Positions 2,881 through 29,630 of a stretch of DNA of 64,000 nt are shown one piece after another. How positions within the stretch are numbered: position 1 is the first letter of the stretch; every line of letters starts with the position of its first letter. The stretch is taken from contig CASCJZ010000520.1 of the NCBI GenBank assembly GCA_949152475.1, forward strand, positions 1 through 64,000, in the 5' to 3' direction. The translations under genes and the position numbers were made by a program. This DNA comes from Terebella lapidaria (taxonomy: Eukaryota > Annelida > Polychaeta > Terebellida > Terebellidae). A model generated the notes under the pieces. The model ran no database searches. It was not told the origin of the DNA and worked only from the letters and a program-made list of their open reading frames with translations.

Positions 2881-2890
2881 CTGGGCAGTG
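2869..2890. other. Junction of family A and family B
   Basis: Family A continues unbroken to catgcgac at 2873-2880, and the sequence then reads ctgggcagtgag, which is the interior of the family B monomer (normally gatgtgactgggcagtgag). Both families have an atg-Y-gac string at this point (A: catgtgac or catgcgac; B: gatgtgac), so the switch lies within about 7 bp of microhomology. The B monomer is entered in its middle, with 80 bp remaining before the next full monomer at 2961. No target-site duplication or filler is visible. Confidence 0.85.
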
Positions 2891-5800
2891 AGATATAGCT
2901 GACCTCGGGGACGAGGTCTCTCCGAAGGGGGAAAGCACTTGAGCGTTATGACGTGGTGGCTACATTAGTAGTGACATCACAATTACAGAGCGAACATGCA
3001 TACAGGTTAATAAGACATTCGGTGACACTTCAGTAATGGGGTATACCTCTTAAATCGTGGGATCGCCGAACATTATATTAATGCCTGACCTTTCGAGCCA
3101 CTGTGGGTTTCTCGGCGTCGCTCCCGGGTCGGCACCTCACTGTGATTCACATCGCAGCCAAGAATGTGTACATATCGGGTACGTAGCGGCGGCCCTAGAC
3201 CTTCAGTTTTGTGATGTGACTGGGCAGTGAGATATAGCTGACCTCGGGTACGAGGTCTCTCCGAAAGGGGAAAGCACTGGAGCGTTATGACGTGGTGGCT
3301 ACTTTAGTAGTGACACCACAATTATAGAGCGAACGTGCGGACAGGTTAACAAGACATTCGGTGACACTTCAGTAATGGGGTATGCCTCTTAAATCGTGGG
3401 GTCGCCGAACCTTACATTGGCCCCTCACCTTTCGAACCACTGTGGGTTTCTCGACGTCACTCCCGGGTCGGCACCTCACTGTGATTCACATCGCAGCCAA
3501 GAATGTGTACATATCGGGTACGATGCGGCGGCCTTAGACCTTCAGTGTTGTGATGTGACTTGGCAGTGAGATATAGCTTACCTCGGGGACGAGGTCTCTC
3601 CGAAAAGGGAAAGCACTGGAGCATTATGACGTGGTGGCTACATTAGTAGTGACACCACAATTATAAAGCGAGCGTGCGGACAGGTTAATAAGACATTCGG
3701 TGACACTTCAGTAATGGGGAATACCTCTTAAATCGTGGGGGGCGCCGAACCTTACATAGGCGCCTGACCTTTCGAACCACTGTGGGTTTCTCGGCGTCGT
3801 TCCCGGGTCGGCCCCTCACTGTGATTCACATCGCAGCCAAGAATGTGTACATATCGGGTACGTTGCGGCGGCCCTAGACCTTCAGTTTTGTGATGTGACT
3901 GGGCAGTGAGATATAGCTGACCTCGGGTACGAGGTCTCTCCAAAAGGGGAAAGCGCTGGAGCGTTATGACGTGGTGGCTATATAGTAGTGACACCACAAT
4001 TATAGAGCAAACGTGCGGACACGTTAATAAGACATTTGGTGACACTTCGGTAATGGGGTATACCTCTTAAATTGTGGGGTCGCCGAGCCTTACATTGGCG
4101 CCTGACCTTTCGAACCACTGTGGGTTTCTCGGCGTCGCTCCCGGGTCGGCCCGTCACTGTGATTCACATCGCAGCCAAGAATGTGTACATATCGGGTACG
4201 TTGCGGCGGCCCTAGGCCTTCAATGTTGTGATGTGACTGGGCAGTGAGATAAAGCTGACCTCGCCGACGAGGTCTCTCTGAAAAGGGAAAGCACTGGAGC
4301 GTTGTGACGTGGTGGCTACATTAGTAGTGACACCACAATTATAGAGCGAGCGTGCGGACAGGTTAATAAGACATTCGGTGACACTTCAGTAATGGGGTAT
4401 ACCTCTTAAATCGTATGGGCGCCGAACCTTACATTGGAGCCTGACCTTTCGAACCACTGTTAGTTTCTAGGCATCGCTCCCGGGTCGGCCCCTCACTGTG
4501 ATTCACATCGCAGCCAAGAATGTGTACATATCGGCTACGTTGCCGCGGCCCTAGACCTTCAGTGTTGTGATGTGACTGGGCAGTGAGATATAGCTGACCT
4601 CGGTGACGAGGTCTCTCCGAAAAGGGAAAGCACTGGAGCGTTATGACGTGGTGGCTACATTAGTAGTGACACCACAATTATAGACCGAACGTGCGGACAG
4701 GTTAATAAGGTCAGCCCCTCACTGTGATTCACATCGCAGCCAAGAATGTGTACATATCGGGTACGTTGCCACGGCCCTAGACCTTCAGTGTTGTGATGTG
4801 ACTGGGCAGTGAGATATAGCTGACCTCGGGGACGAGGTCTTTCCGAAAAGGGAAAGCACTTGAGCGTTATGACGTGGTGGTTACATTAGTAGTGACACCA
4901 CAATTATAAAGCGAACGTGCGGACAGGTTAATAAGAGATTCGGTGGCACTTCAGTAATGGGGTATACTTCTTAATTCGTGGGGGCGCCAAACCTTACATT
5001 GGCGCCTGACCTTTCGAACCACTGTGGGTTTCTCGGCGTCGCTCCCGGGTCAGCCCCTCACTGTGATTCACATCGCAGCCAAGAATGTGTACATATCGGG
5101 TACGTTGCGGCAGCCCTAGACCTTCAGTGTTGTGATGTGACTGGGCAGTGAGATATAGCTGACCTCGGGGACGAGGTCTCTTTGAAAAGGGAAAGCACTG
5201 GAGCGTTATGACGTGGTGGCTACATTAGTAGTGACACCACAATTATAGAGCGAGAGTGCAGAGAGGTTAATAAGACATTCGGTGACACATCAGTAATGGG
5301 GTATACCTCTTAAATCGTGGAGGCGCCGAACCTTACATTGGCCTATGTCCTTTCGAATCACTGAGGGTTTCTCGGCATCGCTCCCGGGTCGGCACCTCAC
5401 TGTGATTCACAGCGCAGCCAAAAATGTGTACATATCGGGTACGTTGCCGCGGGTGTTGTGATGTGACTGGACAGTGAGATATAGCTGACCTCGGGGACGA
5501 GATCTCTCCGAAAAGGGAAAGCACTGGAGCGTTATGACGTGGTGGCTACATTAGTAGTGACACCACAATTATAGAGCGAGCGTGCGGAGAGGTTAATAAG
5601 ACATTCGGTGACACTTCAGTAATGGGGTATACTTCTTAAATCGTGAGGGCGCCGAACCTTACATTGGCACCTGACCTTTCGAACCACTGTGGGTTTCTCG
5701 GCGTCGCTCCCGGGTCGGCCCCTCACTGTGATTCACATCGCAGCCAAGAATGTGTACATATCGTGTACGTTGCGGCGGCCTTAGACATTCACTGTTGTGA

Positions 5801-6102
5801 TGTGACTGGGCAGTGGGATACAGCTGACCTCGAAGACGAGGTCTCTCCGAAAGGGGAAAGCACTGGAGCGTTATGACGTGGTGGCTACATAAGTAGTGAC
5901 ACCACAATTATAGAGCGAACGTGCGGACAGGTTAATAAGGTCGGCCCCTCACTGTGATTCACATCGCAGCCAAGAATGTGTACATATCGGGTACGTTGCC
6001 GCGGCCCTAGACCTTCAGTGCTGTGATGTGACTGGGCAGTGAGATATAGCTGACCTCGGGGACGAGGTCTTTCCGAAAAGGGAAAGCACTGGAGCGTTAT
6101 GA
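2881..6102. repeat. Family B satellite, left block (mostly 339-bp L monomers)
   Basis: Taking tacattagtag as monomer start, the block contains an 80-bp partial unit (2881-2960), five L monomers (2961-4655), one S monomer (4656-4881), three L monomers (4882-5885; the one at 5221-5546 lacks 13 bp) and a truncated S monomer (5886-6102, 217 of 226 bp). L is 339 bp and about 53% G+C. Monomers differ by scattered substitutions. Only two of about ten monomers are S, unlike the right block where S and L alternate, so this edge lacks the higher-order organisation. No coding sequence is credible: the short frames here recur with the monomer. Confidence 0.95.
5446..5458. other. 13-bp deletion in a B monomer
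   Basis: The monomer 5221-5546 is 326 bp instead of 339. The usual gccgcggccctagaccttca followed by gtgttgtg is shortened to gccgcgg joined directly to gtgttgtg, removing 13 bp. This accounts exactly for the length deficit. I saw no other copy with this deletion, so it appears private to this monomer and was not spread by amplification. Confidence 0.85.
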
Positions 6103-6112
6103 GGTCCTAGAC
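6091..6112. other. Left junction of B block and C array
   Basis: The B monomer beginning at 5886 reads normally to ggagcgttatga (ends 6102). The normal continuation cgtggtggc, the last 9 bp of the monomer, is missing. In its place are four bases, ggtc (6103-6106), and family C then begins at ctagactaac (6107). The ggtc may be filler, or a remnant of the lost B bases with further small losses. B (gttatga) and C (actatgtac) share tatg near the break. No target-site duplication is seen when this is compared with the right junction. Confidence 0.88.
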
Positions 6113-9100
6113 TAACTGTTAGCCGAAAATACTCGCTGAATAAATTAACTTAAAATTTACGATATGCCCCATTATAAAATACGATGAGCGCCTATGCTAT
6201 AACATGGGGTCAAAAAATTAACTCTCAGAAACGGCCCCATATTATGTCACAATGTACTATGTACCTAGACTAACTGTTAGCCGAAAATACTCGCTGAATA
6301 AATTAACTTAAAATTTACGATATGCCCCATTATAAAATACGATGAGCGCCTATGCTATAACATGGGGTCAAAAAATTAACTCTCAGAAACGGCCCCATAT
6401 TATGTCACAATGTACTATGTACCTAGACTAACTGTTAGCCGAAAATACTCGCTGAATAAATTAACTTAAAATTTACGATATGCCCCATTATAAAATACGA
6501 TGAGCGCCTATGCTATAACATGGGGTCAAAAAATTAACTCTCAGAAACGGCCCCATATTATGTCACAATGTACTATGTACCTAGACTAACTGTTAGCCGA
6601 AAACACTCGCTGAATAAATTAACTTAAAATTTACGATATGCCCCATTATAAAATACGATGAGCGCCTATGCTATAACATGGGGTCAAAAAATTAACTCTC
6701 AGAAACGGCCCCATATTATGTCACAATGTACTATGTACCTAGACTAACTGTTAGCCGAAAATACTCGCTGAATAAATTAACTTAAAATTTACGATATGCC
6801 CCATTATAAAATACGATGAGCGCCTATGCTATAACATGGGGTCAAAAAATTAACTCTCAGAAACGGCCCCATATTATGTCACAATGTACTATGTACCTAG
6901 ACTAACTGTTAGCCGAAAATACTCGCTGAATAAATTAACTTAAAATTTACGATATGCCCCATTATAAAATACGATGAGCGCCTATGCTATAACATGGGGT
7001 CAAAAAATTAACTCTCAGAAACGGCCCCATATTATGTCACAATGTACTATGTACCTAGACTAACTGTTAGCCGAAAATACTCGCTGAATAAATTAACTTA
7101 AAATTTACGATATGCCCCATTATAAAATACGATGAGCGCCTATGCTATAACATGGGGTCAAAAAATTAACTCTCAGAAACGGCCCCATATTATGTCACAA
7201 TGTACTATGTACCTAGACTAACTGTTAGCCGAAAATACTCGCTGAATAAATTAACTTAAAATTTACGATATGCCCCATTATAAAATACGATGAGCGCCTA
7301 TGCTATAACATGGGGTCAAAAAATTAACTCTCAGAAACGGCCCCATATTATGTCACAATGTACTATGTACCTAGACTAACTGTTAGCCGAAAATACTCGC
7401 TGAATAAATTAACTTAAAATTTACGATATGCCCCATTATAAAATACGATGAGCGCCTATGCTATAACATGGGGTCAAAAAATTAACTCTCAGAAACGGCC
7501 CCATATTATGTCACAATGTACTATGTACCTAGACTAACTGTTAGCCGAAAATACTCGCTGAATAAATTAACTTAAAATTTACGATATGCCCCATTATAAA
7601 ATACGAGGAGCGCCTATGCTATAACATGGGGTCAAAAAATTAACTCTCAGAAACGGCCCCATATTATGTCACAATGTACTATGTACCTAGACTAACTGTT
7701 AGCCGAAAATACTCGCTGAATAAATTAACTTAAAATTTACGATATGCCCCATTATAAAATACGATGAGCGCCTATGCTATAACATGGGGTCAAAAAATTA
7801 ACTCTCAGAAACGGCCCCATATTATGTCACAATGTACTATGTACCTAGACTAACTGTTAGCCGAAAATACTCGCTGAATAAATTAACTTAAAATTTACGA
7901 TATGCCCCATTATAAAATACGATGAGCGCCTATGCTATAACATGGGGTCAAAAAATTAACTCTCAGAAACGGCCCCATATTATGTCACAATGTACTATGT
8001 ACCTAGACTAACTGTTAGCCGAAAATACTCGCTGAATAAATTAACTTAAAATTTACGATATGCCCCATTATAAAATACGAGGAGCGCCTATGCTATAACA
8101 TGGGGTCAAAAAATTAACTCTCAGAAACGGCCCCATATTATGTCACAATGTACTATGTACCTAGACTAACTGTTAGCCGAAAATACTCGCTGAATAAATT
8201 AACTTAAAATTTACGATATGCCCCATTATAAAATACGATGAGCGTCTATGCTATAACATGGGGTCAAAAAATTAACTCTCAGAAACGGCCCCATATTATG
8301 TCACAATGTACTATGTACCTAGACTAACTGTTAGCCGAAAATACTCGCTGAATAAATTAACTTAAAATTTACGATATGCCCCATTATAAAATACGATGAG
8401 CGCCTATGCTATAACATGGGGTCAAAAAATTAACTCTCAGAAACGGCCCCATATTATGTCACAATGTACTATGTACCTAGACTAACTGTTAGCCGAAAAT
8501 ACTCGCTGAATAAATTAACTTAAAATTTACGATATGCCCCATTATAAAATACGATGAGCGCCTATGCTATAACATGGGGTCAAAAAATTAACTCTCACAA
8601 ACGGCCCCATATTATGTCACAATGTACTATGTACCTAGACTAACTGTTAGCCGAAAATACTCGCTGAATAAATTAACTTAAAATTTACGATATGCCCCAT
8701 TATAAAATACGATGAGCGCCTATGCTATAACATGGGGTCAAAAAATTAACTCTCAGAAACGGCCCCATATTATGTCACAATGTACTATGTACCTAGACTA
8801 ACTGTTAGCCGAAAATACTCGCTGAATAAATTAACTTAAAATTTACGATATGCCCCATTATAAAATACGATGAGCGCCTATGCTATAACATGGGGTCAAA
8901 AAATTAACTCAGAAACGGCCCCATATTATGTCACAATGTACTATGTACCTAGACTAACTGTTAGCCGAAAATACTCGCTGAATAAATTAACTTAAAATTT
9001 ACGATATGCCCCATTATAAAATACGATGAGCGCCTATGCTATAACATGGGGTCAAAAAATTAACTCTCAGAAACGGCCCCATATTATGTCACAATGTACT

Positions 9101-9267
9101 ATGTACCTAGACTAACTGTTAGCCGAAAATACTCGCTGAATAAATTAACTTAAAATTTACGATATGCCCCATTATAAAATACGATGAGCGCCTATGCTAT
9201 AACATGGGGTCAAAAAATTAACTCTCAGAAACGGCCCCATATTATGTCACAATGTACTATGTACCTC
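6107..9267. repeat. Family C, left edge zone with variant monomers
   Basis: Twenty monomers, most of them identical to consensus. By eye there are seven departures: substitutions at 6604, 7607, 8081, 8245, 8598 and 9267, and a 2-bp loss near 8910. The changes at 7607 and 8081 are the same T-to-G in the acgatgagcg stretch and lie 474 bp apart, which is 3 monomers, so a three-monomer block was probably copied. Confidence 0.85.
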
Positions 9268-12200
9268 GACTAACTGTTAGCCGAAAATACTCGCTGAATA
9301 AATTAACTTAAAATTTACGATATGCCCCATTATAAAATACGATGAGCGCCTATGCTATAACATGGGGTCAAAAAATTAACTCTCAGAAACGGCCCCATAT
9401 TATGTCACAATGTACTATGTACCTAGACTAACTGTTAGCCGAAAATACTCGCTGAATAAATTAACTTAAAATTTACGATATGCCCCATTATAAAATACGA
9501 TGAGCGCCTATGCTATAACATGGGGTCAAAAAATTAACTCTCAGAAACGGCCCCATATTATGTCACAATGTACTATGTACCTAGACTAACTGTTAGCCGA
9601 AAATACTCGCTGAATAAATTAACTTAAAATTTACGATATGCCCCATTATAAAATACGATGAGCGCCTATGCTATAACATGGGGTCAAAAAATTAACTCTC
9701 AGAAACGGCCCCATATTATGTCACAATGTACTATGTACCTAGACTAACTGTTAGCCGAAAATACTCGCTGAATAAATTAACTTAAAATTTACGATATGCC
9801 CCATTATAAAATACGATGAGCGCCTATGCTATAACATGGGGTCAAAAAATTAACTCTCAGAAACGGCCCCATATTATGTCACAATGTACTATGTACCTAG
9901 ACTAACTGTTAGCCGAAAATACTCGCTGAATAAATTAACTTAAAATTTACGATATGCCCCATTATAAAATACGATGAGCGCCTATGCTATAACATGGGGT
10001 CAAAAAATTAACTCTCAGAAACGGCCCCATATTATGTCACAATGTACTATGTACCTAGACTAACTGTTAGCCGAAAATACTCGCTGAATAAATTAACTTA
10101 AAATTTACGATATGCCCCATTATAAAATACGATGAGCGCCTATGCTATAACATGGGGTCAAAAAATTAACTCTCAGAAACGGCCCCATATTATGTCACAA
10201 TGTACTATGTACCTAGACTAACTGTTAGCCGAAAATACTCGCTGAATAAATTAACTTAAAATTTACGATATGCCCCATTATAAAATACGATGAGCGCCTA
10301 TGCTATAACATGGGGTCAAAAAATTAACTCTCAGAAACGGCCCCATATTATGTCACAATGTACTATGTACCTAGACTAACTGTTAGCCGAAAATACTCGC
10401 TGAATAAATTAACTTAAAATTTACGATATGCCCCATTATAAAATACGATGAGCGCCTATGCTATAACATGGGGTCAAAAAATTAACTCTCAGAAACGGCC
10501 CCATATTATGTCACAATGTACTATGTACCTAGACTAACTGTTAGCCGAAAATACTCGCTGAATAAATTAACTTAAAATTTACGATATGCCCCATTATAAA
10601 ATACGATGAGCGCCTATGCTATAACATGGGGTCAAAAAATTAACTCTCAGAAACGGCCCCATATTATGTCACAATGTACTATGTACCTAGACTAACTGTT
10701 AGCCGAAAATACTCGCTGAATAAATTAACTTAAAATTTACGATATGCCCCATTATAAAATACGATGAGCGCCTATGCTATAACATGGGGTCAAAAAATTA
10801 ACTCTCAGAAACGGCCCCATATTATGTCACAATGTACTATGTACCTAGACTAACTGTTAGCCGAAAATACTCGCTGAATAAATTAACTTAAAATTTACGA
10901 TATGCCCCATTATAAAATACGATGAGCGCCTATGCTATAACATGGGGTCAAAAAATTAACTCTCAGAAACGGCCCCATATTATGTCACAATGTACTATGT
11001 ACCTAGACTAACTGTTAGCCGAAAATACTCGCTGAATAAATTAACTTAAAATTTACGATATGCCCCATTATAAAATACGATGAGCGCCTATGCTATAACA
11101 TGGGGTCAAAAAATTAACTCTCAGAAACGGCCCCATATTATGTCACAATGTACTATGTACCTAGACTAACTGTTAGCCGAAAATACTCGCTGAATAAATT
11201 AACTTAAAATTTACGATATGCCCCATTATAAAATACGATGAGCGCCTATGCTATAACATGGGGTCAAAAAATTAACTCTCAGAAACGGCCCCATATTATG
11301 TCACAATGTACTATGTACCTAGACTAACTGTTAGCCGAAAATACTCGCTGAATAAATTAACTTAAAATTTACGATATGCCCCATTATAAAATACGATGAG
11401 CGCCTATGCTATAACATGGGGTCAAAAAATTAACTCTCAGAAACGGCCCCATATTATGTCACAATGTACTATGTACCTAGACTAACTGTTAGCCGAAAAT
11501 ACTCGCTGAATAAATTAACTTAAAATTTACGATATGCCCCATTATAAAATACGATGAGCGCCTATGCTATAACATGGGGTCAAAAAATTAACTCTCAGAA
11601 ACGGCCCCATATTATGTCACAATGTACTATGTACCTAGACTAACTGTTAGCCGAAAATACTCGCTGAATAAATTAACTTAAAATTTACGATATGCCCCAT
11701 TATAAAATACGATGAGCGCCTATGCTATAACATGGGGTCAAAAAATTAACTCTCAGAAACGGCCCCATATTATGTCACAATGTACTATGTACCTAGACTA
11801 ACTGTTAGCCGAAAATACTCGCTGAATAAATTAACTTAAAATTTACGATATGCCCCATTATAAAATACGATGAGCGCCTATGCTATAACATGGGGTCAAA
11901 AAATTAACTCTCAGAAACGGCCCCATATTATGTCACAATGTACTATGTACCTAGACTAACTGTTAGCCGAAAATACTCGCTGAATAAATTAACTTAAAAT
12001 TTACGATATGCCCCATTATAAAATACGATGAGCGCCTATGCTATAACATGGGGTCAAAAAATTAACTCTCAGAAACGGCCCCATATTATGTCACAATGTA
12101 CTATGTACCTAGACTAACTGTTAGCCGAAAATACTCGCTGAATAAATTAACTTAAAATTTACGATATGCCCCATTATAAAATACGATGAGCGCCTATGCT

Positions 12201-15200
12201 ATAACATGGGGTCAAAAAATTAACTCTCAGAAACGGCCCCATATTATGTCACAATGTACTATGTACCTAGACTAACTGTTAGCCGAAAATACTCGCTGAA
12301 TAAATTAACTTAAAATTTACGATATGCCCCATTATAAAATACGATGAGCGCCTATGCTATAACATGGGGTCAAAAAATTAACTCTCAGAAACGGCCCCAT
12401 ATTATGTCACAATGTACTATGTACCTAGACTAACTGTTAGCCGAAAATACTCGCTGAATAAATTAACTTAAAATTTACGATATGCCCCATTATAAAATAC
12501 GATGAGCGCCTATGCTATAACATGGGGTCAAAAAATTAACTCTCAGAAACGGCCCCATATTATGTCACAATGTACTATGTACCTAGACTAACTGTTAGCC
12601 GAAAATACTCGCTGAATAAATTAACTTAAAATTTACGATATGCCCCATTATAAAATACGATGAGCGCCTATGCTATAACATGGGGTCAAAAAATTAACTC
12701 TCAGAAACGGCCCCATATTATGTCACAATGTACTATGTACCTAGACTAACTGTTAGCCGAAAATACTCGCTGAATAAATTAACTTAAAATTTACGATATG
12801 CCCCATTATAAAATACGATGAGCGCCTATGCTATAACATGGGGTCAAAAAATTAACTCTCAGAAACGGCCCCATATTATGTCACAATGTACTATGTACCT
12901 AGACTAACTGTTAGCCGAAAATACTCGCTGAATAAATTAACTTAAAATTTACGATATGCCCCATTATAAAATACGATGAGCGCCTATGCTATAACATGGG
13001 GTCAAAAAATTAACTCTCAGAAACGGCCCCATATTATGTCACAATGTACTATGTACCTAGACTAACTGTTAGCCGAAAATACTCGCTGAATAAATTAACT
13101 TAAAATTTACGATATGCCCCATTATAAAATACGATGAGCGCCTATGCTATAACATGGGGTCAAAAAATTAACTCTCAGAAACGGCCCCATATTATGTCAC
13201 AATGTACTATGTACCTAGACTAACTGTTAGCCGAAAATACTCGCTGAATAAATTAACTTAAAATTTACGATATGCCCCATTATAAAATACGATGAGCGCC
13301 TATGCTATAACATGGGGTCAAAAAATTAACTCTCAGAAACGGCCCCATATTATGTCACAATGTACTATGTACCTAGACTAACTGTTAGCCGAAAATACTC
13401 GCTGAATAAATTAACTTAAAATTTACGATATGCCCCATTATAAAATACGATGAGCGCCTATGCTATAACATGGGGTCAAAAAATTAACTCTCAGAAACGG
13501 CCCCATATTATGTCACAATGTACTATGTACCTAGACTAACTGTTAGCCGAAAATACTCGCTGAATAAATTAACTTAAAATTTACGATATGCCCCATTATA
13601 AAATACGATGAGCGCCTATGCTATAACATGGGGTCAAAAAATTAACTCTCAGAAACGGCCCCATATTATGTCACAATGTACTATGTACCTAGACTAACTG
13701 TTAGCCGAAAATACTCGCTGAATAAATTAACTTAAAATTTACGATATGCCCCATTATAAAATACGATGAGCGCCTATGCTATAACATGGGGTCAAAAAAT
13801 TAACTCTCAGAAACGGCCCCATATTATGTCACAATGTACTATGTACCTAGACTAACTGTTAGCCGAAAATACTCGCTGAATAAATTAACTTAAAATTTAC
13901 GATATGCCCCATTATAAAATACGATGAGCGCCTATGCTATAACATGGGGTCAAAAAATTAACTCTCAGAAACGGCCCCATATTATGTCACAATGTACTAT
14001 GTACCTAGACTAACTGTTAGCCGAAAATACTCGCTGAATAAATTAACTTAAAATTTACGATATGCCCCATTATAAAATACGATGAGCGCCTATGCTATAA
14101 CATGGGGTCAAAAAATTAACTCTCAGAAACGGCCCCATATTATGTCACAATGTACTATGTACCTAGACTAACTGTTAGCCGAAAATACTCGCTGAATAAA
14201 TTAACTTAAAATTTACGATATGCCCCATTATAAAATACGATGAGCGCCTATGCTATAACATGGGGTCAAAAAATTAACTCTCAGAAACGGCCCCATATTA
14301 TGTCACAATGTACTATGTACCTAGACTAACTGTTAGCCGAAAATACTCGCTGAATAAATTAACTTAAAATTTACGATATGCCCCATTATAAAATACGATG
14401 AGCGCCTATGCTATAACATGGGGTCAAAAAATTAACTCTCAGAAACGGCCCCATATTATGTCACAATGTACTATGTACCTAGACTAACTGTTAGCCGAAA
14501 ATACTCGCTGAATAAATTAACTTAAAATTTACGATATGCCCCATTATAAAATACGATGAGCGCCTATGCTATAACATGGGGTCAAAAAATTAACTCTCAG
14601 AAACGGCCCCATATTATGTCACAATGTACTATGTACCTAGACTAACTGTTAGCCGAAAATACTCGCTGAATAAATTAACTTAAAATTTACGATATGCCCC
14701 ATTATAAAATACGATGAGCGCCTATGCTATAACATGGGGTCAAAAAATTAACTCTCAGAAACGGCCCCATATTATGTCACAATGTACTATGTACCTAGAC
14801 TAACTGTTAGCCGAAAATACTCGCTGAATAAATTAACTTAAAATTTACGATATGCCCCATTATAAAATACGATGAGCGCCTATGCTATAACATGGGGTCA
14901 AAAAATTAACTCTCAGAAACGGCCCCATATTATGTCACAATGTACTATGTACCTAGACTAACTGTTAGCCGAAAATACTCGCTGAATAAATTAACTTAAA
15001 ATTTACGATATGCCCCATTATAAAATACGATGAGCGCCTATGCTATAACATGGGGTCAAAAAATTAACTCTCAGAAACGGCCCCATATTATGTCACAATG
15101 TACTATGTACCTAGACTAACTGTTAGCCGAAAATACTCGCTGAATAAATTAACTTAAAATTTACGATATGCCCCATTATAAAATACGATGAGCGCCTATG

Positions 15201-18050
15201 CTATAACATGGGGTCAAAAAATTAACTCTCAGAAACGGCCCCATATTATGTCACAATGTACTATGTACCTAGACTAACTGTTAGCCGAAAATACTCGCTG
15301 AATAAATTAACTTAAAATTTACGATATGCCCCATTATAAAATACGATGAGCGCCTATGCTATAACATGGGGTCAAAAAATTAACTCTCAGAAACGGCCCC
15401 ATATTATGTCACAATGTACTATGTACCTAGACTAACTGTTAGCCGAAAATACTCGCTGAATAAATTAACTTAAAATTTACGATATGCCCCATTATAAAAT
15501 ACGATGAGCGCCTATGCTATAACATGGGGTCAAAAAATTAACTCTCAGAAACGGCCCCATATTATGTCACAATGTACTATGTACCTAGACTAACTGTTAG
15601 CCGAAAATACTCGCTGAATAAATTAACTTAAAATTTACGATATGCCCCATTATAAAATACGATGAGCGCCTATGCTATAACATGGGGTCAAAAAATTAAC
15701 TCTCAGAAACGGCCCCATATTATGTCACAATGTACTATGTACCTAGACTAACTGTTAGCCGAAAATACTCGCTGAATAAATTAACTTAAAATTTACGATA
15801 TGCCCCATTATAAAATACGATGAGCGCCTATGCTATAACATGGGGTCAAAAAATTAACTCTCAGAAACGGCCCCATATTATGTCACAATGTACTATGTAC
15901 CTAGACTAACTGTTAGCCGAAAATACTCGCTGAATAAATTAACTTAAAATTTACGATATGCCCCATTATAAAATACGATGAGCGCCTATGCTATAACATG
16001 GGGTCAAAAAATTAACTCTCAGAAACGGCCCCATATTATGTCACAATGTACTATGTACCTAGACTAACTGTTAGCCGAAAATACTCGCTGAATAAATTAA
16101 CTTAAAATTTACGATATGCCCCATTATAAAATACGATGAGCGCCTATGCTATAACATGGGGTCAAAAAATTAACTCTCAGAAACGGCCCCATATTATGTC
16201 ACAATGTACTATGTACCTAGACTAACTGTTAGCCGAAAATACTCGCTGAATAAATTAACTTAAAATTTACGATATGCCCCATTATAAAATACGATGAGCG
16301 CCTATGCTATAACATGGGGTCAAAAAATTAACTCTCAGAAACGGCCCCATATTATGTCACAATGTACTATGTACCTAGACTAACTGTTAGCCGAAAATAC
16401 TCGCTGAATAAATTAACTTAAAATTTACGATATGCCCCATTATAAAATACGATGAGCGCCTATGCTATAACATGGGGTCAAAAAATTAACTCTCAGAAAC
16501 GGCCCCATATTATGTCACAATGTACTATGTACCTAGACTAACTGTTAGCCGAAAATACTCGCTGAATAAATTAACTTAAAATTTACGATATGCCCCATTA
16601 TAAAATACGATGAGCGCCTATGCTATAACATGGGGTCAAAAAATTAACTCTCAGAAACGGCCCCATATTATGTCACAATGTACTATGTACCTAGACTAAC
16701 TGTTAGCCGAAAATACTCGCTGAATAAATTAACTTAAAATTTACGATATGCCCCATTATAAAATACGATGAGCGCCTATGCTATAACATGGGGTCAAAAA
16801 ATTAACTCTCAGAAACGGCCCCATATTATGTCACAATGTACTATGTACCTAGACTAACTGTTAGCCGAAAATACTCGCTGAATAAATTAACTTAAAATTT
16901 ACGATATGCCCCATTATAAAATACGATGAGCGCCTATGCTATAACATGGGGTCAAAAAATTAACTCTCAGAAACGGCCCCATATTATGTCACAATGTACT
17001 ATGTACCTAGACTAACTGTTAGCCGAAAATACTCGCTGAATAAATTAACTTAAAATTTACGATATGCCCCATTATAAAATACGATGAGCGCCTATGCTAT
17101 AACATGGGGTCAAAAAATTAACTCTCAGAAACGGCCCCATATTATGTCACAATGTACTATGTACCTAGACTAACTGTTAGCCGAAAATACTCGCTGAATA
17201 AATTAACTTAAAATTTACGATATGCCCCATTATAAAATACGATGAGCGCCTATGCTATAACATGGGGTCAAAAAATTAACTCTCAGAAACGGCCCCATAT
17301 TATGTCACAATGTACTATGTACCTAGACTAACTGTTAGCCGAAAATACTCGCTGAATAAATTAACTTAAAATTTACGATATGCCCCATTATAAAATACGA
17401 TGAGCGCCTATGCTATAACATGGGGTCAAAAAATTAACTCTCAGAAACGGCCCCATATTATGTCACAATGTACTATGTACCTAGACTAACTGTTAGCCGA
17501 AAATACTCGCTGAATAAATTAACTTAAAATTTACGATATGCCCCATTATAAAATACGATGAGCGCCTATGCTATAACATGGGGTCAAAAAATTAACTCTC
17601 AGAAACGGCCCCATATTATGTCACAATGTACTATGTACCTAGACTAACTGTTAGCCGAAAATACTCGCTGAATAAATTAACTTAAAATTTACGATATGCC
17701 CCATTATAAAATACGATGAGCGCCTATGCTATAACATGGGGTCAAAAAATTAACTCTCAGAAACGGCCCCATATTATGTCACAATGTACTATGTACCTAG
17801 ACTAACTGTTAGCCGAAAATACTCGCTGAATAAATTAACTTAAAATTTACGATATGCCCCATTATAAAATACGATGAGCGCCTATGCTATAACATGGGGT
17901 CAAAAAATTAACTCTCAGAAACGGCCCCATATTATGTCACAATGTACTATGTACCTAGACTAACTGTTAGCCGAAAATACTCGCTGAATAAATTAACTTA
18001 AAATTTACGATATGCCCCATTATAAAATACGATGAGCGCCTATGCTATAA
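9268..18050. repeat. Family C, invariant core
   Basis: Across about 8.8 kb, or some 55 consecutive monomers, I found no departure from the 158-bp consensus when reading line by line. This is the most homogeneous stretch of the window. It implies very recent amplification or strong homogenisation, with the caveat that assembly consensus over such a stretch can hide rare variants or miscount copies. Confidence 0.82.
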
Positions 18051-21000
18051 AATGGGGTCAAAAAATTAACTCTCAGAAACGGCCCCATATTATGTCACAA
18101 TGTACTATGTACCTAGACTAACTGTTAGCCGAAAATACTCGCTGAATAAATTAACTTAAAATTTACGATATGCCCCATTATAAAATACGATGAGCGCCTA
18201 TGCTATAACATGGGGTCAAAAAATTAACTCTCAGAAACGGCCCCATATTATGTCACAATGTACTATGTACCTAGACTAACTGTTAGCCGAAAATACTCGC
18301 TGAATAAATTAACTTAAAATTTACGATATGCCCCATTATAAAATACGATGAGCGCCTATGCTATAACATGGGGTCAAAAAATTAACTCTCAGAAACGGCC
18401 CCATATTATGTCACAATGTACTATGTACCTAGACTAACTGTTAGCCGAAAATACTCGCTGAATAAATTAACTTAAAATTTACGATATGCCCCATTATAAA
18501 ATACGATGAGCGCCTATGCTATAACATGGGGTCAAAAAATTAATTCTCAGAAACGGCCCCATATTATGTCACAATGTACTATGTACCTAGACTAACTGTT
18601 AGCCGAAAATACTCGCTGAATAAATTAACTTGAAATTTACGATATGCCCCATTATAAAATACGATGAGCGCCTATGCTATAACATGGGGTCAAAAAATTA
18701 ACTCTCAGAAACGGCCCCATATTATGTCACAATGTACTATGTACCTAGACTAACTGTTAGCCGAAAATACTCGCTGAATAAATTAACTTAAAATTTACGA
18801 TATGCCCCATTATAAAATACGATGAGCGCCTATGCTATAACATGGGGTCAAAAAATTAACTCTCAGAAACGGCCCCATATTATGTCACAATGTACTATGT
18901 ACCTAGACTAACTGTTAGCCGAAAATACTCGCTGAATAAATTAACTTAAAATTTACGATATGCCCCATTATAAAATACGATGAGCGCCTATGCTATATCA
19001 TGGGGTCAAAAAATTAACTCTCAGAAACGGCCCCATATTATGTCACAATGTACTATGTACCTAGACTAACTGTTAGCCGAAAATACTCGCTGAATAAATT
19101 AACTTAAAATTTACGATATGCCCCATTATAAAATACGATGAGCGCCTATGTTATAACATGGGGTCAAAAAATTAACTCTCAGAAACGGCCCCATATTATG
19201 TCACAATGTACTATGTACCTAGACTAACTGTTAGCCGAAAATACTCGCTGAATAAATTAACTTAAAATTTACGATATGCCCCATTATAAAATACGATGAG
19301 CGCCTATGCTATAACATGGGGTCAAAAAATTAACTCTCAGAAACGGCCCCATATTATGTCACAATGTACTATGTACCTAGACTAACTGTTAGCCGAAAAT
19401 ACTCGCTGAATAAATTAACTTAAAATTTACGATATGCCCCATTATAAAATACGATGAGCGCCTATGCTATAACATGGGGTCAAAAAATTAACTCTCAGAA
19501 ACGGCCCCATATTATGTCACAATGTACTATGTACCTAGACTAACTGTTAGCCGAAAATACTCGCTGAATAAATTAACTTAAAATTTACGATATGCCCCAT
19601 TATAAAATATGATGAGCGCCTATGCTATAACATGGGGTCAAAAAATTAACTCTCAGAAACGGCCCCATATTATGTAACAATGTACTATGTACCTAGACTA
19701 ACTGTTAGCCGAAAATACTCGCTGAATAAATTAACTTAAAATTTACGATATACCCCATTATAAAATACGATGAGCGCCTATGCTATAACATGGGGTCAAA
19801 AAATTAACTCTCAGAAACGGCCCCATATTATGTCACAATGTACTATGTACCTAGACTAACTGTTAGCCGAAAATACTCGCTGAATAAATTAACTTAAAAT
19901 TTACGATATGCCCCATTATAAAATACGATGAGCGCCTATGCTATAACATGGGGTCAAAAAATTAACTCTCAGAAACGGCCCCATATTATGTCACAATGTA
20001 CTATGTACCTAGACTAACTGTTTGCCGAAAATACTCGCTGAATAAATTAACTTAAAATTTACGATATGCCCCATTATAAAATACGATGAGCGCCTATGCT
20101 ATAACATGGGGTCAAAAAATTAACTCTCAGAAACGGCCCCATATTATGTCACAATGTACTATGTACCTAGACTAACTGTTAGCCGAAAATACTCGCTGAA
20201 TAAATTAACTTAAAATTTACGATATGCCCCATTATAAAATACGAAGAGCGCCTATGCTATAACATGGGGTCAAAAAATTAACTCTCAGAAACGGCCCCAT
20301 ATTATGTCACAATGTACTATGTACCTAGACTAACTGTTAGCCGAAAATACTCGCTGAATAAATTAACTTAAAATTTACGATATACCCCATTATAAAATAC
20401 GATGAGCGCCTATGCTATAACATGGGGTCAAAAAATTAACTCTCAGAAACGGCCCCATATTATGTCACAATGTACTATGTACCTAGACTAACTGTTAGCC
20501 GAAAATACTCGCTGAATAAATTAACTTAAAATTTACGATATGCCCCATTATAAAATACGATGAGCGCCTATGCTATAACATGGGGTCAAAAAATTAACTC
20601 TCAGAAACGGCCCCATATTATGTCACAATGTACTATGTACCTAGACTAACTGTTAGCCGAAAATACTCGCTGAATAAATTAACTTAAAATTTACGATATG
20701 CCCCATTATAAAATACGATGAGCGCCTATGCTATAACATGGGGTCAAAAAATTAACTCTCAGAAACGGCCCCATATTATGTCACAATGTACTATGTACCT
20801 AGACTAACTGTTAGCCGAAAATACTCGCTGAATAAATTAACTTAAAATTTACGATATGCCCCATTATAAAATACGATGAGCGCCTATGCTATAACATGGG
20901 GTCAAAAAATTAACTCTCAGAAACGGCCCCATATTATGTCACAATGTACTATGTACCTAGACTAACTGTTAGCCGAAAATACTCGCTGAATAAATTAACT

Positions 21001-21430
21001 TAAAATTTACGATATGCCCCATTATAAAATACGATGAGCGCCTATGCTATAACATGGGGTCAAAAAATTAACTCTCAGAAACGGCCCCATATTATGTCAC
21101 AATGTACTATGTACCTAGACTAACTGTTAGCCGAAAATACTCGCTGAATAAATTAACTTAAAATTTACGATATGCCCCATTATAAAATACGATGAGCGCC
21201 TATGCTATAACATGGGGTCAAAAAATTAACTCTCAGAAAGGGCCCCATATTATGTCACAATGAACTATGTACCTAGACTAACTGTTAGCCGAAAATACTC
21301 GCTGAATAAATTAACTTAAAATTTACGATATGCCCCATTATAAAATACGATGAGCGCCTATGCTATAACATGGGGTCAAAAAATTAACTCTCAGAAACGG
21401 CCCCATATTATGTCACAATGTACTATGTAC
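18051..21430. repeat. Family C, right edge zone with variant monomers
   Basis: About 21 monomers with 13 substitutions seen by eye: 18051, 18544, 18632, 18998, 19151, 19610, 19676, 19752, 20033, 20245, 20384, 21240 and 21263. The changes at 19752 and 20384 are the same G-to-A (gatatgcccc to gatatacccc) and lie 632 bp apart, which is 4 monomers, indicating copying of a four-monomer block. Two changes fall in the final two monomers next to family B. Confidence 0.85.
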
Positions 21431-21440
21431 TACATTAGTA
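21421..21440. other. Right junction of C array and B block
   Basis: Family C ends at its monomer end (tactatgtac, to 21430), where the next C monomer would begin ctagac. Instead family B begins at tacattagtag, which is the first base of the B monomer in the register used here. One base of overlap (c of gtac, or of ggctacatt) is shared. Together with the left junction, only 9 bp of one B monomer are missing across the whole C array. Confidence 0.9.
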
Positions 21441-24400
21441 GTGACACCACAATTATAGAGCGAGTGTGCGGACAGGTTATTAAGACATTCGGTGACACAT
21501 CAGTAATGGGGTATACCTCTTAAATCGTGGGGGCGCCGAACCTTACATTGGCGTATGTCCTTTCGAACCACTGTGGGTTTCTCGGCGTCGCTCCCGGGTC
21601 AGCACCTCACTGTGATTCACAGCGCAGCCAAAAATGTGTACACATCGGGTACGTTGCCGCGGCCCTAGATCTTTACTGTTGTGATGTGACTGGGCAGTGG
21701 AATACAGCTGACCTCGAAGACGAGGTATCGACGAAAGGGGAAAGCACTGGAGCGTTATGACGTGGTGGCTACATAAGTAGTGACACCACAATTATAGAGC
21801 GAACGTGCGGACAGGTTAATAAGACATTCGGTGACACTTCAGTAATGGGGTATACCTCTTAAATCGTGGGGTCGCCGAACCTTACATTGGCGCCTGACCT
21901 TTCGAACCACTGTGGGTTTCTTGGCGTCGCTCCCGGGTCGGCCCCTCACTGTGATTCACATCGCAGCCAAAAATGTGTACATATCGGGTACGTTGCAACG
22001 GCCTTAGACCTTCAGTGTTGTGATGTGACTGGGCAGTGAGATATAGCTGACCGCGGGGACGAGGTCTCTCTGAAAGGGGAAAGCACTGGAGCGTTATGAC
22101 GTGGTGGCTACATAAGTAGTGACACCACAATTATAGAGCGAACGTGTGGACAGGTTAAGAAGGTCGGTCCCTCACTGTGATTCACATCGCAGCCAAGAAT
22201 GTGTACATATCGGGTACGTTGCCACGGCCCTAGACCTTCAGTGTTGTGATGTGACTGGGCAGTGAAATATAGCTGACCTCGAGGACGAGGTCTCTCTGAA
22301 AAGGGAAAGCACTGGAGCGTTATGACGTGGTGGCTACATTAGTAGTGACACCACAATTATAGAGTGAGCGTGCGGACAGGTTAATAAGACATTCGGTGAC
22401 ACTTCAGTAATGGGGTATACCTCTTAAATCGTGGGGTCGCCGAACCTTACATTGGCGCCTGACCTTTCGAACCACTGTGGGTTTCTCGGCGTCGCTCCCG
22501 GGTCGGCCCCTCACTGTGATTCACATCGCAGCCAACAATGTGTACATATCGGGTACGTTGCAACGGCCTTAGACCTTCAGTGTTGTGATGTGACTGGGCA
22601 GTGAGATATAGCTGACCTCGAGGACGAGGTCTCTCCAAAAAAAGAAAGCACTACAACATTATGACATGGTGGCTACATTAGCAGTGACACCACAATTATA
22701 GAGCGAGCGTGCGGAGAGGTTAATAAGACATTCGGTGACACTTCAGTAATGTGCTATACCTCTTAAATCGTGGGGGCGCCGAATCTTACATTGGCGCCTG
22801 ACCTTTCGAACCATGGTATGTTTCTCGGCGTCGATGCCGGGTCGGCCCCTCACTGTGATTCACATCGCAGCCAAGAATGTGTACATATCGGGTACGTTGC
22901 GGCGGCCCTAGACCTTCAGTGTTGCGATGTGACTGGGCAGTGAGATACAGCTGACCTCGGGGACGAGGTCTCTCCGAAAAGGGAAAGCACTGGAGAGTTA
23001 TGACGTGGTGGCTACATTAGTAGTGACATCACAATTATAGAGCGAGCGTGCGGAGAGGTTATTAAGACATTCGGTGACACAACAGTAATGGGGTATACCT
23101 CTTAAATCGTGGGGGCGCCGAACCTTACATTGGCGTATGTCCTTTCGAACCACTGTGGGTTTCTCGGCGTCGCTCCCGGGTCAGCACCTCACTGTGATTC
23201 ACAGCGCAGCCAAAAATGTGTACACATCGGGTACGTTGCCGCGGCCCTAGATCTTCACTGTTGTGATGTGACTGGGCAGTGGGATACAGCTGACCTCGAA
23301 GACGAAGTATCTCCGAAAGGGGAAAGCACTGGAGCGTTATGACGTGGTGGCTACATAAGTAGTGACACCACAATTATAGAGCGAACGTGCGGACAGGTTA
23401 ATAAGACATTCGGTGACACTTCAGTAATGGGGTATACCTCTTAAATCGTGGGGTCGCCGAACCTTACATTGGCGCCTGACCTTTCGAACCACTGTGGGTT
23501 TCTCGGCGTCGCTCCCGGGTCGGCCCCTCACTGTGATTCACATCGCAGCCAACAATGTGTACATATCGGGTACGTTGCGACGGCCTTAGACCTTCAGTGT
23601 TGTGATGTGACTGGGCAGTGAGATAAAGCTGACCTCGGGGACGAGGTCTCTCTGAAAGGGGAAAGCACTGGAGCGTTATGACGTGGTGGCTACATAAGTA
23701 GTGACACTACAATTATAGAGCGAACGTGCGGACAGGTTAAGAAGGTCGATCCCTCACTGTGATTCACATCGCAGCCAAGAATGTGTACATATCGGGTACG
23801 TTGCCGCGGCCTTAGGCCTTCAGTGTTGTGATGTGACTGGGCAGTGAGATATAGCTGACCTCGAGGACGAGGTCTCTCCGAAAAGGGAAAGCACTTGAGC
23901 GTTATGACGTGGTGGCTACATTAGTAGTGACACCACAATTATACAACGAACGTGCGGACAGGTTAATAAGTAATTCGGTGACACTACAGTAATGGGGTAT
24001 ACTTCTTAAATCGTGACGGCGCCGAACCTTACATTGGCACCTGACCTTTCGAACCACTGTGGGTTTCTCGGCGTCGCTCCCGGATCGGCACTTCACTGTG
24101 ATTCACAGCGCAGCCAAGAATGTGTACATATCGGGTACGTTGCTGCGGCCCTAGATCTTCAGTGTTGTGATGTGACTGGGCAGTGAGATATAGCTGACCT
24201 CGAGGACGAGGTCTCTCCGAAAAGGGAAAGCACTACAGCGTTATGACGTGGTGGCTACATTAGTAGTGACACCACAATTATAGAGCGAGCGTGCGGAGAG
24301 ATTAATAAGACATTCGGTGACACTTCAGTAATGTGCTATACCTCTTAAATCGTGGGGGCGCCGAATCTTACATTGGCGCCTGACCTTTCGAACCATGGTA

Positions 24401-27400
24401 TGTTTCTCGGCGTCGATGCCGGGTCGGCCCCTCACTGTGATTCACATCGCAGCCAAGAATGTGTACATATCGGGTACGTTGCGGCGGCCCTAGACCTTCA
24501 GTGTTGCAATGTGACTGGGCAGTGAGATACAGCTGACCTCGGGGACGAGGTCTCTCCGAAAAGGGAAAGCACTGGAGCGTTATGACGTGGTGGCTACATT
24601 GGTAGTGACACCACAATTATAGAGCGAGCGTGCGGAGAGGTTATTAAGACATTCGGTGACACATCAGTAATGGGGTATACCTCTTAAATCGTGGGGGCGC
24701 CGAACCTTACATTGGCGTATGTCCTTTCGAACCACTGTGGGTTTCTCGGCGTCGCTCCCGGGTCAGCACCTCACTGTGATTCACAGCGCAGCCAAAAATG
24801 TGTACACATCGGGTACGTTGCCGCGGCCCTAGATCTTCACTGTTGTGATGTGACTGGGCAGTGGGATACAGCTGACCTCGAAGACGAGGTATCTCCGAAA
24901 GGGGAAAGCACTGGAGCGTTATGACGTGGTGGCTACATAAGTAGTGACACCACAATTATAGAGCGAACGTGCGGACAGGTTAATAAGGTCGGCCCCTCAC
25001 TGTGATTCACATCGCAGCCAAGAATGTGTACATATCGGGTACGTTGCGGCGGCCCTAGACCTTAAGTGCTGTGATGTGACTGGGCAGTGAGATATAGCTG
25101 ACCTCGGGGACAAGGTCTCTCCGAAAAGGGAAAGCACTGGAGCGTTATGACGTGGTGGCTACATTAGTAGTGACACCACAATTATAGAGCGAGCGTCCGG
25201 ACAGGTTAATAAGGTCGGCCCCTCACTGTGATTCACATCGCAGCCAAGAATGTGTACATATCGGGTACGTTGCCGAGGCCCTAGACCTTCAGTGTTGTGA
25301 TGTGACTGGGCAGTGAGATATAGCTGACCTCGGGGACGAGGTCTCTCCGAAAGGGGAAAGCACTGGAGCGTTATGACGTGGTGGCTACATAAGTAGTGAC
25401 ACCACAATTATAGAGCGAACGTGCGGACAGGTTAATAAGGTCGGCCCATCACTGTGATTCACATCGCAGCCAAGAATGTGTACATATCGGGTACGTTGCC
25501 GCGGCCCTAGACCTTCAGTGTTGTGATGTGACTGGGCAGTGAGATATAGCTGACCTCGGGGACGAGGTCTCTCCGAAAAGGGAAAGCACTGGAACGTTAT
25601 GACGTGGTGGCTACATTAGTAGTGACACCACAGTTATAGAGCGAGCGTGCAGACAGGTTAATAAGACATTCGGTGACACTTCAGTAATGGGGTATACCTC
25701 TTAAATCGTGGGGTCGCCGAACCTTACATTGGCGCCTGACCTTTCGAACCACTGTGGGTTTCTTGGCGTCGCTCCCGGGTCGGCCCCTCACTGTGATTCA
25801 CATCTCAGCCAAGAATGTGTACATATCGGGTACGTTGCGGCGGCCTTAGACCTTCACTGTTGTGATGTGACTGGGCAGTGGGATACAGCTGACCTCGAAG
25901 ACGAGGTATCTCCGAAAGGGGAAAGCACTGGAGCGTTATGACGTTGTGGCTACATAAGTAGTGACACCACAATTATAGAGCGAACGTGCGGACAGGTTAA
26001 GAAGGTCGGCCCCTCACTGTGATTCACATCGCAGCCAAGAATGTGTACATATCGGGTAGGTTTCGGCGGCCCTAGACCTTCAGTGTTGGGATGTGACTAA
26101 GCAGTGAGATATAGCTGACCTCTGGGACGAGGTCTTTCCGAAAATGGAAAGCACTGGAGCGTTATGACGTGGTGGCTACATTAGTAGTGACACCACAATT
26201 ATGGAGCGAGCGTGCGAAGAGGTTAATAAGACATTCGGTGACACTTCAGTAATGGGGTATACCTCTTAAATCGTGGGGACGCCGAACCTTACATTGGCGC
26301 CTGACCTTTCAAACCACGGTATGTTTCTCGGCGTCGATCCCGGGTCGGCCCCTCACTGTGATTCACATCGCAGTCAAGAATGTGTACATATCGGGTACGT
26401 TGCGGCGGCATTAGACCTTCAGTGTTGTGATGTGACTGGGCAGTGAGATATAGCTGACCTCGAGGACGAAGTCTCTCCGAAAAGGGAAAGCACTGGAGCG
26501 TTATGACGTGGTGGCTACATAAGTAGGGACACCACAATTATAGAGCGAATGTGCGGACAGGTTAATAAGGTCGACCCCTCACTGTGATTCACATCGCAGC
26601 CAAGGATGTGTACATATCGGGTACGTTGCCGCGGCCCTAGACCTTCATTGTTGTGATGTGACTGGGCAGTGAGATATAGCTGACCTCGAGGACGAGGTCT
26701 CTCTGAAAAGGGAAAGCACTTGAGCGTTATGACGTGGTGGCTACATTAGTAGTGACACCACAATTATAGAGCGAACGTGCGGACAGGTTAATAAGAGATT
26801 CGGTGACACTTCAGTAATGGGGTATACTTCTTAAATCGTGGGGGCGCCGAACCTTACATTGGCGCCTGACCTTTCGAACCACTGTGGGTTTCTCGGCGTC
26901 GCTCCCGGGTCGGCCCCTCACTGTGATTCACATCGCAACCAAGAATGTGTACATATCGGGTACGTTGCGGCGGCCCTAGACCTTCAGTGCTGTGATGTGA
27001 CTGGGCAGTGAGATATAGCTGACCTCGGGGACGAGGTATGTCCGAAAAAAGAAAGCACTGGAGCGTTATGACGTGGTGGCTACATTAGTAGGGACACCAC
27101 AATTATAGAGCGAGCGTGCGGAGAGGTTATTAAGACATTCGGTGACACATCAGTAATGGGGTATACCTCTTAAATTGTGGGGGCGCCGAACCTTACATTG
27201 GCGTATGTCCTTTCGAACCACTGTGGGTTTCTCGGCGTCGCTCCCGGATCGGCACCTCACTGTGATTCACAGCGCAGCCAAGAATGTGTACATATCGGGT
27301 ACGTTGCTGCGGCCCTAGATCTTCAGTGTTGTGATGTGACTGGGCAGTGAGATATAGCTGACCTCGAGGACGAGGTCTCTCCGAAAAGGGAAAGCACTAC

Positions 27401-28974
27401 AGCGTTATGACGTGGTGGCTACATTAGTAGTGACACCACAATTATAGAGCGAGCGTGCGGAGAGGTTAATAAGACATTCGGTGACACTTCAGTAATGTGC
27501 TATACCTCTTAAATCGTGGGGGCGCCGAATCTTACATTGGCGCCTGACCTTTCGAACCATGGTATGTTTCTCGGCGTCGATGCCGGGTCGGCCCCTCACT
27601 GTGATTCACATCGCAGCCAAGAATGTGTACATATCGGGTACGTTGCGGCGGCCCTAGATCTTCAGTGTTGCGATGTGACTGGGCAGTGAGATACAGCTGA
27701 CCTCGGGGACGAGGTCTCTCCGAAAAGGGAAAGCACTGGAGCGTTATGACGTGGTGGCTACATTAGTAGTGACACCACAATTATAGAGCGAGCGTGCGGA
27801 GAGGTTATTAAGACATTCGGTGACACATCAGTAATGGGGTATACCTCTTAAATCGTGGGGGCGCCGAACCTTACATTGGTGTATGTCTTTTCGAACCATT
27901 GTGGGTTTCTCGGCGTCGCTCCCGGGTCAGCACCTCACTGTGATTCACAGCGCAGCCAAAAATGTGTACATATCGGGTACGTTGCGGCGGCCTTAGACCT
28001 TCACTGTTGTGATGTGACTGGGCAGTGGGATACAGCTGACCTCGAAGACGAGGTCTCTCCGAAAGGGGAAAGCACTGGAGCGTTATGACGTGGTGGCTAC
28101 ATAAGTAGTGACACCACAATTATAAAGCGAACGTGCGGACAGGTTAATAAGGTCGGCCCCTCACTGTGATTCACATCGCAGCCAAGAATGTGTACATATC
28201 GGGTACGTTGCCGCGGCCCTAGACCTTCAGTGTTGTGATGTGACTGGGCAGTGAGATATAGCTGACCTCGAGGACGAGGTCTCTCCGAAAAGGGAAAGCA
28301 CTTGAGCGTTATGACGTGGTGGCTACATTAGTAGTGACACCACAATTATAGAGCGAACGTGCGGACAGGTTAATAAGAGATTCGGTGACACTTCAGCAAT
28401 GGGGTATACTTCTTAAATCGTGAGGGCGCCGAACCTTACATTGGCGCCTGACCTTTCGAACCACTGTGGGTTTCTCGGCGTCACTCCCGGGTCGGCCCCT
28501 CACTGTGATTCACATCGCCGCCAAGAATGTGTACATATCGTGTACGTTGCGGCGGCCTAAGACCTTCACTGTTGTGATGTGACTGGGCAGTGGGATACAG
28601 CTGACCTCGAAGACGAGGTCTCTCCGAAAGGGGAAAGCACTGGAGCGTTATGACGTGGTGGCTACATTAGTAGTGACACCACAATTATAGAATGAGCGTC
28701 CGGACAGGTTAATAAGGTCGGCCCCTCACTGTGATTCACATCGCAGCCAAGAATGTGTACATATCGGGTACGTTGCCGCGGCCCTAGACCTTCAGTGTTG
28801 TGATGTGACTGGGCAGTGGGATATAGCTGACGTGGGGCACGAGGTCTCTCCGAAAAGGGAAAGCACTTGAGCGTTATGACGTGGTGGCTACATTAGTAGT
28901 GACACCACAATTATAGAGGGAACGTGCAGACAGGTTAATAAGAGATTCGGTGACACTTCAGTAATGGGGTATAC

Positions 28975-28990
28975 TTCTTACATTGGCGCC
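28975..28990. other. 23-bp microhomology deletion in an L monomer
   Basis: The monomer 28889-29204 is 316 bp, 23 shorter than L. The sequence jumps from tatacttctta directly to cattggcgcc, leaving out aatcgtgggg through gaacctta. Both sides of the loss carry ctta, so one ctta copy remains. This is the pattern of replication slippage or microhomology end joining. Confidence 0.85.
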
Positions 28991-29604
28991 TGACCTTTCG
29001 AACCACTGTGGGTTTCTCGGCGTCGCTCCCGGGTCGGCCCCTCACTGTGATTCACATCGCAGCCAAGAATGTGTACATATCGGGTACGTTGCGGCGGCCT
29101 TAGACCTTCACTGTTGTGATGTGACTGGGCAGTGGGATACAGCTGACCTCGAAGACGAGGTCTCTCCGAAAGGGGAAAGCACTGGAGCGTTATGACGTGG
29201 TGGCTACATAAGTAGTGACACCACAATTATAGAGCGAACGTGCGGACAGGTTAATAAGGTCGGCCTCTCACTGTGATTCACATCGCAGCCAAGAATGTGT
29301 ACATATCGGTTACGTTGCCGCGGCCCTAGACCTTCAGTGTTGTGATGTGACTGGGCAGTGAGATATAGCTGACCTCGAGGACGAGGTCTCTCCGAAAAGA
29401 GAAAGCACTTGAGCGTTATGACGTGGTGGCTACATTAGTAGTGACACCACAATTATAGAGCGAACGTGCGGAGGGTTAATAAGACATTCGGTGACACTTC
29501 AGTAATGGGGTATACCTCTTAAATCGTGGAGGCGCCGAACCTTACATTGGCGCCTGACCTTTCGAACCACGGTATGTTTCTCGGCGTCGCTCCAGGGTCG
29601 GCAC

Positions 29605-29630
29605 CTCACTATGATTCACAATTATAGAGC
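29605..29630. other. 169-bp microhomology deletion fusing B monomers
   Basis: An L monomer reads gattcaca and then attatagagc, which belongs 169 bp further on (normally after gacaccaca). The shared string caca marks the join. The region 29431-29938 is 508 bp, which equals two L monomers (678) minus 169 and minus a 1-bp loss near 29470. I saw no second copy of this fusion. Confidence 0.85.

Follow-up and report, generated by a model that had tools for sequence, protein, structure and literature searches.

An in-register satellite array inside another satellite is probably one dispersed copy of an older B-C-B cassette

Introduction

How does a long array of one satellite come to lie inside another satellite without disturbing the register of its host? 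To our knowledge, the entry of a satellite into another satellite has mostly been deduced from mixed arrays. The question is raised here by the window, by which we mean the whole stretch of 64,000 nucleotides analysed, which opens contig C408 (981,200 bp) in an assembly of 761.6 Mb and 438 contigs. It contains an array of a 158-bp satellite (C) bounded on both sides by a satellite with 226/339-bp monomers (B). A literature search made without the species name found no description of this B/C pair, and one could easily be missed.

Results

Both satellites keep their register across the seams

Direct reading of the left seam gave GCGTTATGA, the triplet GGT and then CCTAGACTAAC, and at the right seam ACTATGTA was found to pass directly into CTACATTAGTAG. 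Intact B monomers continue from GCGTTATGA through CGTGGTGG to CTACAT (124 of the 131 window sites match), and the left seam therefore lacks 8 bp of B and carries 3 bp of extra sequence (GGT). The last B site left of C is at 5885, so that a 226-bp monomer would be expected to end at 6110, and B actually ends at 6102. B restarts at 21430 with base 1 of a 339-bp monomer, and the following B site is at 21769. An earlier note on this DNA had described C as lying in phase inside the B array, a description that holds now that both seams have been read directly, with the coordinates moved by 1–2 bp (5885 in place of 5886, 21430 in place of 21431). The 9-bp shortfall and possible 4-bp filler given there become 8 and 3 bp; one C base at the seam is ambiguous, and the earlier figures correspond to placing it differently, which is just as valid.

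The B register, the only one mentioned in that note, is kept across C to 8 bp, and the C register is kept as well, to whole units. The stretch 6106–21429 is filled by 97 units of 158 bp minus a single 2-bp deletion (unit 17), so both edges are in C register: the first unit of the insert begins at base 1, the last one ends at base 158, and the number of units is whole. Monomer type also continues across C: the left stub is of the short type opening with A and the right monomer of the long type opening with T, and AS-to-TL is the commonest neighbour pair in the right B block (38 instances, the next pairs having 36 and 18), as counted with a pattern that missed some degenerate B sites. Two random B breakpoints would agree within 8 bp with a chance of 8.0%, or give a net loss of 0–9 bp with a chance of 4.7%, and a random C fragment would consist of whole units within 1 bp with a chance of 1.9%. 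The joint chance of the B and C registers is about 0.15% if the two are independent.

We found no target-site duplication at the window seams (left ...TGAGGT, right CTACATT...). The damage amounts to 5–8 bp of B lost and 0–3 bp added, with an overlap of at most 1 bp at the right seam; small losses and additions of this kind, with no target-site duplication, look like the products of end joining. Among monomers of the window and the fetched loci, the closest intact relatives of the truncated monomer differ from it at 2 of 217 positions and then continue CGTGGTGGCTACATTAG. Where other B monomers have TGACGTGGTGG, the one with its motif at 61524 has TGAGGTGGTGG, and the left-seam GGT may therefore be B sequence and not filler. 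Moreover, the first seven bases of C, CCTAGAC, are found within B too (window 6003–6012 vs 6103–6112), and GGTCCTAGAC at the left seam also exists as a B variant, from which the left join was possibly templated or based on microhomology, an idea that arose post hoc. Apart from the shared heptamer, no similarity between pieces of C and B was detected at E 1e-5, and no Rfam family was detected in window 1–27000 at gathering thresholds.

To the left, a 26-bp tandem array of CCACCGTACGATGGACATGTGACGCT occupies window 1–2881 and adjoins the left B block at ATG(T/C)GAC, a stretch that by eye is present in both repeats and suggests a microhomology seam. Feature coordinates are collected in Table 1.

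Table 1 Satellite features of the window and the evidence on which each was placed
Feature	Coordinates	Strand	Evidence
Left B satellite block (226/339-bp monomers)	2882..6102	+	TRF; site spacing; near-identical C9:39.54 Mb copy
Truncated 226-type B monomer, bases 1–218 of 226	5885..6102	+	Seam reading; closest intact monomers
3-bp filler GGT at left seam, or alternatively B sequence	6103..6105	+	TGAGGTGGTGG at 61524; GGTCCTAGAC within B
C satellite array, 97 whole 158-bp units	6106..21429	+	TRF; unit walk
First B monomer right of C, hybrid	21430..21768	+	Comparison with other right-seam loci
Right B satellite block, 226 and 339 monomers mostly in alternation	21430..64000	+	TRF; monomer-type order

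Both seams are found again at other places in the genome

The exact left-seam 25-mer occurs at four places (C9:39.54 Mb, C9:39.99 Mb, the end of C15 and the window) and the exact right-seam 30-mer at seven, with no hit for the reversed-pattern control in the left search or for the control in the right search. When the genome was searched with seam patterns allowing 0–30 bp of any filler, the same four left and seven right seams were returned, and no variant seams beyond these. Contigs C9, C15, C45, C87, C141, C368 and C408 carry at least one seam, and both are present in the assembly only at the window and on C15. At C9:39.54 and C9:39.99, B is followed by C and then by N gaps; C141 and C368 start within C, at base 1; C45 and C87 terminate in C, one C87 sample at 45 kb being without a C match. 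Of the five right-seam loci for which the assembly shows no left seam, four lie on a contig that stops within C. No difference separates C45 from C368 in 1,500 bp of right flank or in 1,400 bp of C, so that a single locus may be represented twice there; other near-identical copies, too, could in some cases be haplotigs or duplicates made in assembly.

At C9:37.69 Mb (L020, C9:37687957) the right seam is present and the left edge of C falls mid-unit, adjoining a truncated dispersed element and not B; the two other copies of this element that we examined extend past the truncation point. An exact C 32-mer was found at 3,387 places. Among the matches listed, which run in contig-number order, the first is at C9:37,687,958, and by that order exact C cores are apparently absent from C1–C8, including C6 with its large B arrays.

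The flanks are related by descent and the window has lost one B monomer

Left flanks show 0–1 differences over 766–1,400 bp in all six pairs. Right flanks of the six non-window loci show 0–10 mismatches (0–4 gap columns) per ~700 bp in 15 pairs, an identity of ~98% or better. The window right flank differs from each of these six at 55–59 positions over ~700 bp because the window lacks one 339-bp monomer. When an exact 339-bp shift is applied, it is 98.5–99.0% identical to all six over the first 400 bp and, in a longer query, 99.0–99.1% identical over 1,176 bp to the four loci listed (L013, L015, L017 and L018).

The monomer at 21430–21768 is a hybrid of monomers 1 and 2 of the other right-seam loci, with the switch mainly between bases 44 and 51. 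At informative sites it agrees with monomer 1 at bases 36 and 44, whereas from base 51 onward most sites agree with monomer 2, with totals for monomer 1 vs monomer 2 of 4 vs 26 (L013), 4 vs 27 (L015) and 4 vs 24 (L017). The switch is not perfectly clean, because two later sites per comparison return to monomer 1 and base 41 in the L013 comparison reads monomer 2. The comparison was ungapped, and L014 and L016, which have 1-bp indels, were left out, as was L018, which is identical to L015 over the stretch; L017 is out of step on the C side, for a similar reason. The window hybrid contains GAGTGTGCGGACAGG, which is also present in monomer 1 at five of the six other loci and differs by one base at the sixth. 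This sequence occurs at one place in the window (145 B sites) and, among the fetched loci, also in two intact B monomers of C6. Given the hybrid-monomer sites and the sharing of GAGTGTGCGGACAGG, one 339-bp monomer was most likely lost by homologous recombination beside an already existing C-B seam, and the hybrid fits such a loss. Removal of one whole monomer next to C with no change of register shows how register is kept. As the seams recur with homologous flanks, the most satisfactory reading of the in-phase arrangement is that it dates from a single founding event and has since been maintained by homologous recombination within B.

C turns over between fixed seams

Counting the last unit as complete, 79 of the 97 window C units are identical to unit 0, and units 21–74 (0-based; window 9422–17953) form a run of 54 such units. 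C variants were seen in units closer to both edges and not within this run. The variants 3:T25C, 9:T80G and 12:T80G are common to the window, C9:39.99 and C15, and 20:A4C is common to the window and C9:39.99; units 13, 15 and 17 show slight differences. C9:39.54 carries a different set of C variants despite a flank almost identical to that of the window (8 differences in 2,801 bases against window 1615–4415, which covers 26-bp array and B, and 1 in 1,500 in a separate comparison). C9:39.99 is identical to the window over 4439–7590, through the seam, and diverges further left, its 26-bp array being 92–94% identical to that of the window and that of C9:39.54 near-identical. Because C9:39.99 matches 4439–7590 and diverges leftward where C9:39.54 stays near-identical, the window looks like a mosaic of these two C9 copies, arising by exchange or by assembly.

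Repeat number between the fixed seams also varies: by coordinates, the seams are 15.3 kb apart in the window and 46.3 kb apart on C15, a comparison of two loci in which C15 was read in part. The C15 array holds a 2,366-bp LTR element whose 734-bp LTRs are identical to each other (L072, C15:34337100-34345600), which suggests a likely recent insertion. With this element subtracted, arithmetic on the partly read C15 C tract leaves it some 20 bp below the length of 278 units, and internal indels must therefore be assumed.

Intact B sites are paralogous

The earlier note had proposed looking for an intact B monomer at the insertion position. Intact sites do exist, 96 of them lying within 3 mismatches of the 94-base joined flank, and these are paralogous; no allelic empty site was found in the assembly, the best of the 96 having 2 mismatches and none 0–1. 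Flanks were compared at eight fetched loci (L005–L008, L076–L079). The intact site on C13 (L005, L007) had the best flank among these and was rejected as an allele, with 15 mismatches in 600 on the left and 6 in 200 on the right.

Elsewhere in the assembly, C438 (15,973 bp) carries cox1, as identified by a Pfam match, between frames that we take to be nad2 and cox2 (translated with genetic code table 5). A second cox1 match, split and with stops, is located on the 61-kb contig C417 (L081) and is perhaps a nuclear copy of mitochondrial DNA.

Discussion

In our judgement the window is probably one dispersed copy of an older B-C-B satellite cassette that goes back to one founding insertion, followed by copying, exchange and turnover of C. 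That it is a dispersed copy and not a fresh local event is argued by the recurrence of the same two seams elsewhere in the genome. The proposal that C entered a B array already in place, at the cost of a few bp, is supported, as the B register, the C register and the monomer pair agree and the damage resembles end joining. The further suggestion that the locus is a clean snapshot of a fresh event had to be given up: it has its left seam at four places and its right seam at seven, with flanks homologous by descent.

The founding insertion may have begun with a double-strand break in a B monomer, where end-joining repair would have captured whole-unit C DNA with a loss of 5–8 bp of B. With a chance that we put near even, if slightly under it, the captured DNA was a circle of at least one C monomer opened at one point. 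The C tract would then have grown and shrunk by unequal exchange, which would be unable to change its edges, and homologous exchange within B would leave the register unchanged. The B-C-B block would have been copied and exchanged among places in the genome, likely chromosome ends.

The strongest alternative concerns the capture step alone, so that its odds overlap those of the dispersed cassette: a single C monomer or very short seed was inserted and expanded in place. Expansion of a seed would also yield fixed edges and whole units, and the run of 54 units identical to unit 0 is as expected after recent expansion, but the duplication endpoints would need to coincide with the insertion endpoints. 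We consider this a real possibility that falls somewhat short of an even chance. The whole-unit C tract itself fits an opened circle and an expanded one-unit seed equally, the same appearance being expected from both. A bolder extension of the circle proposal, which we regard as rather unlikely, is that the double register records a multimeric C circle integrated into a broken B monomer and that C tracts have since then served as exchange platforms between chromosome ends. The left seam region and early C units are identical in the window, C9:39.99 and C15, and a one-monomer difference together with point mutations sets the right flank of the window apart from that of C15. If this extension is true, the left and right halves of cassettes now carry different histories.

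The remaining alternatives dispute the cassette itself. Two separate joins, C-B first and B-C later, for example by chromosome-end exchange, would account for C9:37.69, where a right seam is present but no B lies left of C, and for the excess of right over left seams (7 vs 4). Their registers would then match by chance, at the joint figure of about 0.15% given above, and most of the right-seam loci without a left seam simply have a contig that ends in C; this leaves the two joins only a small chance. A recent independent entry of C at the window locus agrees with the sharp seams and the great homogeneity of C, but identical seams at four (left) and seven (right) places, homologous flanks and a common B monomer start make it very improbable. 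Least credible of all is an assembly artefact joining C and B. Gaps and contig ends are indeed located in C, but the right seam is found in seven contigs, and several of the flanks differ by SNPs, small indels and the 339-bp deletion.

Duplication of subtelomeric blocks with ectopic exchange between them is a known process. In likeness to it, B is found near the ends of chromosome-size contigs (C6, end; C13, start; C15, end), which suggests a location at chromosome ends even though no telomere was seen, and the copies look mosaic; unlike the subtelomeric case, more interior parts of C9 and C12 hold B as well.

The closest known case is that of Tribolium madens, where TmSat2 ‘cassettes’ are embedded in the major satellite TmSat1; their transition zones are highly conserved, the number of repeats varies from cassette to cassette, and the copies, found on many contigs, show signs of having exchanged sequence (PMC13081366). 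As there, the major satellite, here B, borders C on either side (window and C15, the other loci being open, gapped or differently bounded), seam sequences are conserved across contigs, exactly so at four left and seven right seams, and repeat number differs between fixed seams (window vs C15). TmSat2 is related to TmSat1, and its repeats form inverted dyads around an inversion site (PMC13081366). By contrast, C does not match B at the threshold used here, and the window C array is one-directional with no inverted subarrays, as are the samples taken from other C arrays. Thousands of arrays were analysed in T. madens (same source); the seams here number four on the left and seven on the right, with both registers preserved. 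In plants, circular satellite DNA whose size is a multiple of the monomer has been documented (PMC2543021). Such circles would supply whole-unit C for capture, although those of plants are free circles and the circle step proposed here is inferred.

The value of this locus lies in the precision of its seams: one junction pair has been copied to several places, and frozen edges can be told apart from a churning middle. A register-preserving loss of one B monomer has been caught at the seam, and the whole-unit register of C would offer a testable sign of circular-repeat capture.
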